Assembly (NCBI GenBank): GCA_900553635.1
Contig: USDU01000184.1
Span: 1-5,139, forward strand
Origin: an uncultured Lachnospiraceae bacterium
Lineage (GTDB): Bacteria > Bacillota_A > Clostridia > Lachnospirales > Lachnospiraceae
DNA length: 5,139 nt
Direction of reading: 5' to 3'
The notes under the pieces: model-generated
Databases searched by the model: none
Seen by the model: only the letters and a program-made list of their open reading frames with translations
Told to the model about the DNA's origin: nothing
Shown: piece after piece, positions 1,331-5,139 of the stretch
Layout: the number at the start of each line of letters is the position of its first letter
How positions within the stretch are numbered: position 1 is the first letter of the stretch
Made by a program: the position numbers and the translations under genes

Positions 1331-1810
1331 TTAGTCCTCCGGCCAATACCCCTCCAGCGCAGGCAGCAGCGCCCCATCATAAATCAGCCGCAGCAGCGCG
1401 TCCAGTTTTCGGAGAGAATCCAGAAGCTGATCCGATGTAATCAGCTTCTTCTCCACCGCCTCGGCCAGCTCATCCAGATCCACCACCTTGATGAGCCCGG
1501 AAGGATAAATCAGCACATCCGCCAGCAGATCCGTGAAGGTGAAGGTATCCGTGTCCGCGTCATACTCTGTGGCAATGATATCGCAGTACCAGCAGATCAG
1601 CTTCCCCTGATGGTCAATGAAACGACTGACCTTCCAGCCTTCCTTCAGCAGAAAACAGGACGAGCCGTGATGCAGCTCCTTTTTGGGCTTAATGGTGGTC
1701 CAGCGGGTCACCAGCAGCCGGTCGCTGCGGTGGATGACCACGTCCTTTTCCAGACGCAGGGTTTCCAGAGGGATCAGACGTTTGCGAATCAGGGTGGGAT
1801 GTTGTACCAT
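1331..1810 (-). CDS. DUF402 domain protein (FomD/Ntdp-like fold)
   Basis: 159-residue cytoplasmic protein of the DUF402 family. Known members include the Staphylococcus aureus nucleotide phosphatase Ntdp and the fosfomycin-pathway hydrolase FomD, both metal-dependent phosphoester hydrolases. The recognisable core runs from CWYCDI (residues 73-78) through YDADTDTFTFTDLLADV (about 83-99) to YPSGLIKVVDLDELAEAV (about 102-119). Acidic residues Asp94, Asp98, Asp111, Asp113 and Glu114 fall where family members carry conserved, partly metal-binding acids. There is no signal peptide or membrane segment. The start is well supported: AAAAGGAGG lies 7 bases upstream and overlaps the stop codon of the AraC-type gene, so the two are co-transcribed and perhaps translationally coupled. 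The actual substrate cannot be told from sequence. The link to the regulator is positional only; a housekeeping nucleotide-hydrolysis role is equally possible. Confidence 0.82.
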   Translation of the reverse strand: MVQHPTLIRKRLIPLETLRLEKDVVIHRSDRLLVTRWTTIKPKKELHHGSSCFLLKEGWKVSRFIDHQGKLICWYCDIIATEYDADTDTFTFTDLLADVLIYPSGLIKVVDLDELAEAVEKKLITSDQLLDSLRKLDALLRLIYDGALLPALEGYWPED

Positions 1811-1817
1811 GGCGGGG

Positions 1818-1826
1818 CCTCCTTTT
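1818..1826 (-). promoter_or_regulatory. Ribosome binding site of DUF402 gene overlapping the upstream stop
   Basis: Read on the minus strand, AAAAGGAGG begins within the TAA stop (1827-1825) of the AraC-type gene and ends 7 bases before the DUF402 ATG. Ribosomes finishing the regulator would therefore sit on this site, which suggests coupled translation. Confidence 0.8.
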
Positions 1827-2748
1827 ACTGATGGTTTTTTACAAGCGTAAGGGAATCGTTTTCTACATACTCCTTTTCCGCGGAGCGGCGGTTGTAATAG
1901 GTTCTCTTATATACATCCGGATCCGCCACCAGCAGGAACTCCGAGGGCGTGTATCCGGTGATTTCCTTGAACACCCGATTGAAGGTGCGGATATTGTTGA
2001 AGCCGCAGGACAGGGCTACGTCCGTGATCTTTTTACCGGTGTTCCGAAGCTGTGAAGCAGCCCGTTCTACTCGGACCAGGTTCAGATAAGTGACGAAATT
2101 GATGCCCATGAGCTTCTTAAAAGTCTTGGAGAAATGGCTGTTGCTGAAATTCATCCGGGAGGCAGCGAATTCCAGAGTAATATTGTCGGCATAATGTTCG
2201 TCCATATAGGACAGCAGATCCTGCAGATCCCCCAGCATCCGGGAGCGCCGGTCATCGGGAAGCTGCTCGGCGTCGGTCCGGGGATGGCAGCGTTTTAAGA
2301 GCGCCCAGAAGGCCTGAATGGATGAACTGACCACTTCCTGGTAAAATGGCTTTTTCTGTTCCAGCTCCCGGGAAACCGTGTCGATGAGATCTGTAAGCTG
2401 CCCGGAGAGTCCGAAGGTGTCCAGCTCTGCTTTGGTGATGAGCGGATGCATAAAACCCGGATTCTGAAAAAGCGGCCCGAGAATGGATGTATCAAAGATA
2501 AGAAAATCCAGCACATTGTCCATCCCATGGGAATCGCTGTAATGGATCATCCCGCTCTCACAGACGGTCAGATCCCCGGCGTGCGCCAGAAAGGTCTGAT
2601 CGGTAATGCTTAAAAGACAGGAGCCCGAGCGCACGTAGATCAGCTCAATTTCCTTATGCCAGTGGGCCAGAAATCCCACATTTTCATAACGGGAATGCCA
2701 GACCATATAGTCAGAGTCATAGTTTCGCACTTCATGGAAAGCTTTCAT
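1825..2748 (-). CDS. AraC-family transcriptional regulator, divergent from fucI
   Basis: 307-residue two-domain regulator. The N-terminal part (about residues 20-90) is an AraC-type cupin sensor domain: HWHKEIELIYVRSGSCLLSI, with His29, His31 and Glu33 at the usual pocket edge, then AHAGDLTVCESGMIHY. The C-terminal part (about 175-273) is the double helix-turn-helix DNA-binding domain. The first helix pair is near 190-213 (ITLEFAASRMNFSNSHFSKTFKK). The second is near 241-264 (ITDVALSCGFNNIRTFNRVFKE), ending in the family hallmark GYTPSEF. About 35 further charged residues follow the domain. The ATG at 2748 has AGGAGA 9 bases upstream and a good promoter behind it. The gene is divergent from fucI across a 199-bp gap, which makes fucI the likely target and L-fucose or a derivative the likely effector. 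That assignment is inference from position; autoregulation is also likely. Confidence 0.93.
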   Translation of the reverse strand: MKAFHEVRNYDSDYMVWHSRYENVGFLAHWHKEIELIYVRSGSCLLSITDQTFLAHAGDLTVCESGMIHYSDSHGMDNVLDFLIFDTSILGPLFQNPGFMHPLITKAELDTFGLSGQLTDLIDTVSRELEQKKPFYQEVVSSSIQAFWALLKRCHPRTDAEQLPDDRRSRMLGDLQDLLSYMDEHYADNITLEFAASRMNFSNSHFSKTFKKLMGINFVTYLNLVRVERAASQLRNTGKKITDVALSCGFNNIRTFNRVFKEITGYTPSEFLLVADPDVYKRTYYNRRSAEKEYVENDSLTLVKNHQ

Positions 2749-2947: not shown

Positions 2948-4750
2948 GTGGCAAAAAGCAGATTAATTGGGGATTATCCGGTAATTGGTATCCGTCCTAC
3001 TATCGACGGAAGAAGAGGAACTCTTGATGTAAGAGGATCTCTGGAAGAGCAGACCATGAACATGGCAAAAGCAGCAGCAAAGCTGTTTGAGGAAAATATC
3101 CGTTATTCCAACGGTGAGCCGGTAAAGGTGGTTATCGCAGACACCACCATCGGTCGTGTAGGCGAGGCAGCTGCCTGCGCAGACAAGTTCCGTAAAGCAG
3201 GCGTAGACATCACCCTGACCGTTACTCCCTGCTGGTGCTACGGCTCCGAGACCATGGACACCGACCCGTTGACCATCAAGGGCGTATGGGGACTGAACGC
3301 TACCGAGAGACCGGGTGCTGTATACCTGGCTTCCGTACTGGCTACCCATGCACAGAAGGGACTTCCGGCATTCGGTATCTACGGACATGACGTTCAGGAT
3401 GCTGACGATGAGACCATCCCGGAGGACGTAAAGGCAAAGCTTCTCCGCTTTGGCCGCGCCGCAGTGGCAGCAGCAAGCATGAGAGGAAAATCCTACCTGC
3501 AGATTGGTTCCGTTACCATGGGTATCGGCGGATCCATCATCAGCCCGGAATTCATCGAGGAATATCTGGGAATGCGTGTGGAGTCTGTAGACGAGGTTGA
3601 AATTATCCGTCGTATGACAGAGGGTATCTACGATCACGAAGAGTTCGAGAAGGCTCTGAAGTGGGCGAAGGAGACCTGTACTATCGGCTTCGACAAGAAC
3701 CCGCCTGAGCTTCAGATGACAGAGGAGCAGAAGGAAGAGCAGTTCGAGTTCGTCGTAAAGATGGCTGTTATCATCAAAGAGCTGATGAACGGCTGCGACA
3801 AGCTGGATCCGAAGTTCTCCGAGGAAGCTATCGGACACAACGCTCTGGCAGCAGGCTTCCAGGGACAGAGACAGTGGACAGACTTCTATCCCAACGGTGA
3901 CTTTGCAGAGGCAATGCTGAACACCTCCTTCGACTGGGAAGGCGCAAGAGAGCCGTACATCCTGGCTACCGAGAACGACGTATTGAACGGACTGGGCATG
4001 CTGTTCATGAAGCTGCTGACCGGCCGTGCTCAGATGTTCGCGGATGTTCGTACCTACTGGAGCGGAGACGCAGTAAAGAGAGTTACCGGTTATGATCTGG
4101 AAGGCAAGGCAAAAGAGGCTGACGGCTTTATCCACCTGATCAACTCCGGCGCATGCTGCCTGGATGCCTGCGGCGAAGTAAAGGATGAGAACGGCAACGG
4201 CACCATGAAGCAGTGGTGGGATGTAACCGAAGAGGATCAGAAGAAGATTATGGAAGCAACCACCTGGAACGCAGCTGACAACGGCTACTTCCGTGGCGGC
4301 GGATTCTCCTCCCGTTTCCTGACCAGAGCTGAGATGCCGGCTACCATGATTCGCCTGAACCTGGTAAAAGGACTTGGACCGGTTCTGCAGATTGCAGAGG
4401 GCTGGACCATCAACCTGCCGGATGATGTATCCGATACTCTGTGGAAGAGAACAGACTACACATGGCCCTGCACATGGTTCGCACCGCGCTGCACAGGCGA
4501 GGGCGCATTCAAGACCGCTTACGATATGATGAACAACTGGGGCGCAAACCATGGCGCTATCAGCTACGGTCACATCGGCGCAGACCTGATTACCCTCTGC
4601 TCCATCTTAAGAATCCCGGTATGTATGCACAATGTTCCGGAAGAGGAGATCTTCCGTCCGGCAGCATGGAACGCATTCGGTATGAACAAAGAGGGACAGG
4701 ACTTCCGTGCATGCAAGGCATACGGCCCGCTGTACAAGACTATCCGTTAA
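2948..4750 (+). CDS. fucI: L-fucose isomerase
   Basis: Cytoplasmic Mn2+-dependent ketol isomerase that turns L-fucose into L-fuculose, the first intracellular step of fucose breakdown. Family members also act on D-arabinose. The product has 600 residues against 591 in Escherichia coli FucI and can be aligned with it from end to end. Shared blocks include GIRPTIDGR (14-22), [12 protein letters not shown] (91-102), ERPGAVYLA (120-128), [12 protein letters not shown] (143-154), [18 protein letters not shown] (301-318) and IAEGW (482-486). The metal and catalytic residues known from E. coli (Glu337, Asp361, His528) correspond to Glu342 in ATEND, Asp366 in FADVRTYW and His535 in WGANHG. The gene is complete and ends at TAA before a strong terminator, so it forms a one-gene unit. 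No fuculokinase, aldolase or transporter gene is in the window. The divergent AraC-type gene is the likely regulator. Codon choice resembles that of upp, which fits high expression. Confidence 0.97.
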
Positions 4751-4773
4751 TTCGAAAAGAGAAGTTACATACG

Positions 4774-4807
4774 GGAGCATGGAACTGCGAGGTTCCGTGC
4801 TCCTTTT
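4774..4807 (+). terminator. Rho-independent terminator of fucI
   Basis: GGAGCATGGAAC (4774-4785) pairs with GTTCCGTGCTCC (4792-4803) over 12 positions, with one G-U wobble that is allowed only in + strand RNA. The loop is 6 bases and TTTT follows. It lies 23 bases after the fucI stop. The T-run is also the first four bases of the palindromic repeat. Confidence 0.88.
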
Positions 4808-4890
4808 GCTCTATAGGAAACACTGTGTTACGTTAAAGTGCGAAAACTATGATTCCTATAGAGCAAAAAGCCCATCCGGGGGATCGCACT
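4804..4890. repeat. Palindromic repeat element, copy 2
   Basis: Same architecture and orientation as the copy at 1187-1273: 16-bp perfect arms (4804-4819 and 4853-4868), a 33-base loop, and the conserved tail CCATCCGGGGGATCGCACT. The left arm starts exactly at the T-tract of the fucI terminator. Seven of the nine loop differences from copy 1 are transitions. Confidence 0.82.
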
Positions 4891-4991
4891 GCGACAGAGT
4901 AGCTTTCTCGTACATTAAAATAAAAAAACGTATATCTGGGAAGATGACCAATTAACAGATGACGGGAGAAAAAATTTGACAAAAATCTGAC

Positions 4992-5020
4992 TTGCAATAT
5001 GGAAGGGACTCTGCTAAAAT
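4992..5020 (+). promoter_or_regulatory. Promoter of the riboswitch-controlled unit
   Basis: -35 TTGCAA (4992-4997), a 17-base spacer and -10 TAAAAT (5015-5020). The predicted start is near 5027, about 20 bases before the aptamer's conserved GGGCAAACC. A perfect TTGACA at 4976-4981 is present but has only a poor -10 partner (TATGGA at 4998). Confidence 0.65.
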
Positions 5021-5034
5021 GAACAATATTGCAA
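4992..5034. repeat. Perfect 9-bp inverted repeat bracketing the promoter -10 region
   Basis: TTGCAATAT (4992-5000) and ATATTGCAA (5026-5034) are exact reverse complements 25 bases apart. The first covers the -35 box and the second the predicted start point. This placement suits a repressor operator, though no regulator is identified. Confidence 0.6.
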
Positions 5035-5039
5035 AAAGA

Positions 5040-5128
5040 GAATACTGGGCAAACCTGCTGAAAAGCAGGGACGCAAAGCCAAAAGGGTCTAAGGGTAAAA
5101 CTATGACAGCCGGTTGCTATTGGAAGTC
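5040..5128 (+). ncRNA. c-di-GMP-I riboswitch (GEMM-I) aptamer
   Basis: Cis-acting RNA that binds cyclic di-GMP and controls the gene downstream, which lies outside the window. Conserved GEMM-I blocks appear in order: GGGCAAACC (5047-5055); hairpin CCTGCT-GAAA-AGCAGG with its GAAA tetraloop (5054-5069); GGGACGCAAAGCC (5068-5080); TCTAAG (5088-5093) and TATG (5102-5105), resembling the two strands of the 11-nt tetraloop receptor; then GACAGCCGGTTGCT (5105-5118). By alignment to the Vibrio cholerae Vc2 RNA, the ligand-contacting G20 and A47 correspond to G5048 and A5075. G rather than A at the G20 position predicts c-di-GMP rather than cGAMP. The 3' boundary is approximate. The expression platform is cut off, so whether it is an ON or OFF switch cannot be told. 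Confidence 0.93.
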
Positions 5129-5139
5129 CGAAAAGAATT

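Follow-up and report, generated by a model that had tools for sequence, protein, structure and literature searches.

A c-di-GMP-I riboswitch with its own promoter downstream of fucI in an uncultured Lachnospiraceae bacterium

The stretch of DNA analyzed here (5,139 nucleotides, hereafter the window) closes with a genuine, ordinary c-di-GMP-I (GEMM-I) riboswitch that has its own promoter and very probably heads its own transcription unit. The aptamer, located at 5038 to 5121 on the forward strand, matches the Rfam c-di-GMP-I model (RF01051) over its full length (model positions 1 to 87), scoring 69.0 bits (gathering score 35) with an E value of 1.6e-12 (cmscan). Two more Rfam matches of the same clan overlap it, both lower scoring, and the same family search gave no RF01051 in any of 14 control genomes. 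A preliminary description of this DNA had proposed a c-di-GMP riboswitch downstream of fucI and had suggested this very model as a check, and the significant match obtained bears it out. The span proposed then (4976 to 5139) covers the promoter region (4992 to 5020), the aptamer and the 18 bases past it, at which point the window ends.

Once the Rfam alignment was mapped onto the sequence, 19 of the 22 model pairs turned out to be standard, and the three exceptions (two gapped, one G-A) all fall within P3. The P2 hairpin (5054 to 5069) has its six pairs standard and carries a GNRA-type tetraloop, GAAA, at 5060 to 5063, while the P3 helix occupies 5077 to 5115, with arms at 5077 to 5096 and 5099 to 5115. 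A possible P1, outside the Rfam model pairs, could join AAUA (5041 to 5044) with UAUU (5118 to 5121). For numbering we relied on the Vibrio cholerae Vc2 aptamer, for which a C22-G45 pair in P2 and A47 to A49 in J2-3 are described (PMC3764141). Setting C22-G45 at 5050-5073 gives 5048 as G20 and 5075 as A47, and C92 was assigned to 5117 by alignment to the conserved 3' end. These are the bases reported to touch the ligand in Vc2 (G20, A47 and C92; PMC4744006), and all three are conserved in the window as G5048, A5075 and C5117. The step from G20 to A47 is 27 in Vc2 and in the Bacillus thuringiensis Bc1 switch (G11, A38, as given in PMC11218506), the same as in the window. The preliminary description had seen nearly all GEMM-I consensus elements here, and sequence comparison establishes the identity of the aptamer and the integrity of its contact bases. 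Together with RF01051, Vc2 and Bc1, the window has P2, P3, the GAAA tetraloop, the three contact equivalents and a promoter directly upstream. It differs in having U at position 93 and a shortened P3 end, where each strand lacks two positions of the model and the 3' strand has an extra gap.

To place these features in context we took 62 switch loci from related genomes which, after removal of 4 unparsed and 5 duplicates, left 53 related switches; part of this set was gathered by DNA similarity rather than by covariance model, and at least one member (L151) looks truncated. Position 93 is C in 35 of them, A in 13, T in 3 and G in 2, by a rough parse that caught the wrong string in several rows. 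Position 20 is G in 44 of the 53 and A in nine. The G at this position in the window (5048) points to c-di-GMP rather than cGAMP as the ligand; the G20A class I scaffold is the form studied with 3',3'-cGAMP (PMC6274999). A riboswitch of this scaffold sensing another dinucleotide, of the 3',3'-cGAMP type, is conceivable insofar as cGAMP-sensing variants do use GEMM-I (PMC6274999, PMC9481103) and A20 occurs among the relatives. However, the window shares the scaffold without the A20, the Rfam model that fits it best is the standard c-di-GMP-I one, and we regard this alternative as extremely improbable. The nine A20 switches of the relatives (L085, L102, L136, L145, L149, L169, L174, L175 and L186) thus have the substitution by which cGAMP-sensing variants are recognized in other organisms. 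Diguanylate-cyclase (GGDEF) domains were found in all of 21 related genomes, so that c-di-GMP is probably available in this kind of cell.

The genes that precede the switch are the 3' end of upp (1 to 558), a dCMP-deaminase-like gene (start at about 578, end at 1066), a DUF402 gene (1331 to 1810, reverse strand), an AraC-type regulator gene (1825 to 2748, reverse strand) and, divergent from the latter, fucI (2948 to 4750, forward strand), which starts with GTG and codes for an L-fucose isomerase of 600 amino acids (Pfam Fucose_iso_N1, N2 and C). The AraC-type protein is likely the regulator of fucI. Of the 15 sister loci that were fetched, 12 also have the start of fucI adjoining the AraC gene, the exceptions being L118, where fucI is further off, and L106 and L119, where no fucI was found. 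Among the matches listed, a Blautia copy (L002) shares 92% identity with the window FucI in its best segment, and those of L112 to L118 share 84 to 87%. The identity is only 74 to 76% for the FucI proteins encoded next to the nearest AraC genes (L105, L107 and L109 to L111) and 72% for the partial L108. A replacement of fucI by transfer is possible from these comparisons.

Downstream of fucI there are, in this order, a terminator-like hairpin, a repeat element, the promoter and the aptamer. The hairpin (4773 to 4804, forward strand) has 14 pairs and a 4-nt loop followed by TTTGCTCTAT, a weak T-run. Such hairpins are expected by chance 1.3 times in 4300 to 5139 and only this one was observed, but its position directly 3' of the fucI stop makes it credible. 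The repeat element (4804 to 4890) is an inverted repeat with arms TTTTGCTCTATAGGAA / TTCCTATAGAGCAAAA, and has a second copy at 1187 to 1273, 80% identical over 87 nt; one copy lies 3' of the dCMP deaminase gene and the other 3' of fucI. The exact-arm pattern was absent from 15 related genomes and near-exact patterns from 186 loci. The element may be a mobile or MITE-like repeat restricted to this lineage. An Rfam match to mir-2511 at 4798 to 4871 (E 0.49, 22.7 bits, gathering score 100) overlies this element and was rejected for that reason.

The promoter (4992 to 5020, forward strand) is of the sigma-A-like type, with TTGCAA (4992 to 4997) as the −35 box, a 17-nt spacer and TAAAAT (5015 to 5020) as the −10 box, preceded by TG. 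From the end of the −10 box to the aptamer core there are 27 bases, and the median of this distance in the 53 related switches is also 27. A weighted promoter score, with weights that we set ourselves, was matched by only 2 of 200 shuffles of the 80 bases before the core (p 0.015 with +1 correction). A simple consensus scan is not significant by itself (one forward-strand site in 4300 to 5139, 1.0 expected). In the relatives, the best upstream site reached p ≤ 0.05 in 32 of 53 switches, and by the same weighted score no promoter was found at p 0.05 in the other 21. The preliminary description was right in placing a promoter upstream of the aptamer. The TTGACA at 4976 to 4981, which it may have had in view, lacks a good −10 partner, the best one being TATGGA at 16 nt, and was discarded as the −35 box. 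The separate unit behind fucI, also proposed in that description, is supported by this promoter and by the hairpin 3' of fucI, from which the riboswitch probably heads a unit apart from fucI.

Over the −35 box and the expected transcription start there is a perfect 9-bp inverted repeat, TTGCAATAT (4992 to 5000) / ATATTGCAA (5026 to 5034). Its length was attained in 6 of 2000 shuffles, and it was noticed after the fact. It is a possible operator, but it may mean nothing, since exact inverted repeats of at least 8 bases stand upstream of 6 of the 53 related switches. One could imagine a double control, in which a DNA-binding regulator at this repeat would gate initiation and c-di-GMP would gate elongation, the gene concerned coding for a surface or secreted protein and lying beside the fucose locus; we consider such an arrangement quite improbable.

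As to how the switch might act, RNA polymerase would start about 7 bases 3' of the −10 box (5015 to 5020), so that the aptamer would be made first. c-di-GMP would then bind between P2 and P3 at G5048, A5075 and C5117 and lock the 3' strand (5105 to 5121) in the aptamer. Without ligand, this strand would be free for an alternative pairing just downstream. A candidate for it is the hairpin at 5105 to 5128 (forward strand) that takes the aptamer 3' strand in the ligand-free minimum-energy fold and might be the beginning of the expression platform. The free fold of 5027 to 5139 does not contain the full aptamer and has −23.9 kcal/mol, compared to −19.6 with the aptamer pairs enforced (a difference of 4.3 kcal/mol). 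The fold is no stabler than those of shuffled sequences (z −0.81, with 43 of 200 equally stable), and the alternative hairpin fits a switch as a model without statistical support. The competition for the strand would decide between a terminator and read-through, as most often seems to be the case in the relatives. Ligand binding, the mechanism, its ON or OFF sense and the target are all matters that we infer.

In an automatic scan of the first 330 nt or so 3' of the aptamer, 41 of the 53 related switches showed a terminator-like hairpin. The classes were assigned automatically, and a few are doubtful (L147, L182): in 34 cases the hairpin is separate from the aptamer, and in seven its 5' arm starts in the aptamer 3' strand. 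The latter type recalls the B. thuringiensis Bc4 switch, described as an ON switch in which the terminator competes with the ligand-bound P1/P3 strand (PMC4759541). In the remaining 12 the scan found no such hairpin, due in some to masked sequence and in others perhaps to translation control. Since a decision between terminator and read-through seems to be the most frequent situation in the relatives, the switch most likely controls the transcription of a gene or operon situated past 5139, and by this analogy c-di-GMP-controlled transcription termination is likely in the window. Translation control, with the ligand freeing or hiding a ribosome-binding site, would be a variant of the same reading. 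Both modes have been described among class I switches (PMC11218506), and the 12 relatives without terminator leave room for it, but the 41 with a terminator-like hairpin make it considerably the less probable of the two; provided that there is a riboswitch heading its own unit, we would put termination ahead with reasonable confidence. A decayed remnant, without a working platform or gene, could also be considered, as the visible sequence stops at 5139 and none of 91 scanned related loci has a switch at this place. The intact contact bases, tetraloop and P2, and a promoter at the usual distance, speak against decay, which seems to us very unlikely.

In the case of a working switch, its expression platform and target gene would lie beyond 5139, and the target could be any of the kinds seen in relatives. 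An open reading frame was found after 47 of the 53 related switches, of which we kept 43 with a start no more than 450 bases away; in some relatives masked downstream stretches left neither gene nor terminator to be seen. Surface or secreted proteins are among the products of these first genes, but so are chemoreceptors, HU-like proteins and an EAL protein, and one operon of polysaccharide type is headed by an epimerase gene. Among the 25 of 49 Pfam families listed for the 43 genes, the most frequent are transglutaminase-like (6), copper-amine-oxidase N-terminal domain (4), chemoreceptor domain (3), epimerase (3), CAP (2) and HU-like (2), with EAL, type II secretion ATPase, response regulator and others found once. 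In G007, the operon behind one switch codes for an epimerase/DUF4118 protein and two DUF2194 proteins (Pfam), and the next frame is glycosyltransferase-like by eye; the first genes in G009 and G013 look similar by eye. We take this operon to resemble the Pel polysaccharide operons of Gram-positive bacteria. At L120:2599-10913 (the same place as L099), where an operon of this make-up lies in a probable sister species, the switch is of the overlapping-terminator type, with the 5' arm of the terminator inside the aptamer 3' strand. In Blautia schinkii (G006; L130:2628-8039), an A20-type switch precedes a protein of 1804 amino acids in which fn3 and peptidase M60 domains are present and F5/F8 type C matches weakly; enzymes of this kind are presumably mucin-directed.

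The vicinity of a mucin-sugar gene had made a surface or mucus-related target attractive in the preliminary description. A motif scan, i.e., a pattern search and not a covariance model, covered up to 2 kb after fucI in 91 related loci (500 bases or more in 87 of them, the full 2 kb in 84). It found no aptamer; the three strings that it picked up lie on the opposite strand and look like chance occurrences. No c-di-GMP-I switch appeared either in L001 to L007, which were run whole against Rfam, and the six RF01051 places in G007, G009, G013 and G018 are never on the contig with the AraC gene of that genome. The neighborhood of fucI and switch is not conserved and so does not speak for a connection between the switch and fucose, and we rejected the link as unsupported.

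Protein matches place the window in or near one group, which we take as a genus: AraC is 72 to 81% identical in the 16 nearest genomes (G002 and G007 to G021, chosen as best AraC matches), and Upp is 85 to 88% identical in 10 of 18 genomes, with two 87% pieces in G020 and 78% or less, or nothing, in the other seven. No nearer genome was found among 294 relatives of a Blautia genome. Among the matches listed, upp and AraC are both beside fucI in L004, L005, L015 and L021, named Lachnospiraceae bacterium, Clostridia bacterium, Candidatus Limivivens and Diplocloster. RF01051 was detected in four of the 16 nearest genomes (G007, G009, G013 and G018) and not in G002 and the 11 others. When 395 relatives were searched with the DNA, 77 had a match at E 0.01; the strong ones (from 89% identity downwards) cover the aptamer, and among the matches listed none extends past base 5122. 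An exact 31-base aptamer pattern was absent from viral contigs and phage records gave no match, while plasmid records yielded a single Ruminococcus albus plasmid sharing bases 5049 to 5120 only.

In the literature on c-di-GMP riboswitches with Lachnospiraceae or Blautia we found no publication on this locus; for Blautia, a survey of tandem switches treats c-di-GMP riboswitches (PMC9481103). The class is common in relatives, with at least one c-di-GMP-I switch in 153 of 395 genomes, and the finding does not by itself change any view. What it adds is one clear c-di-GMP-I switch from an uncultured Lachnospiraceae-type bacterium, close to a genus where four of the 16 genomes searched carry one.
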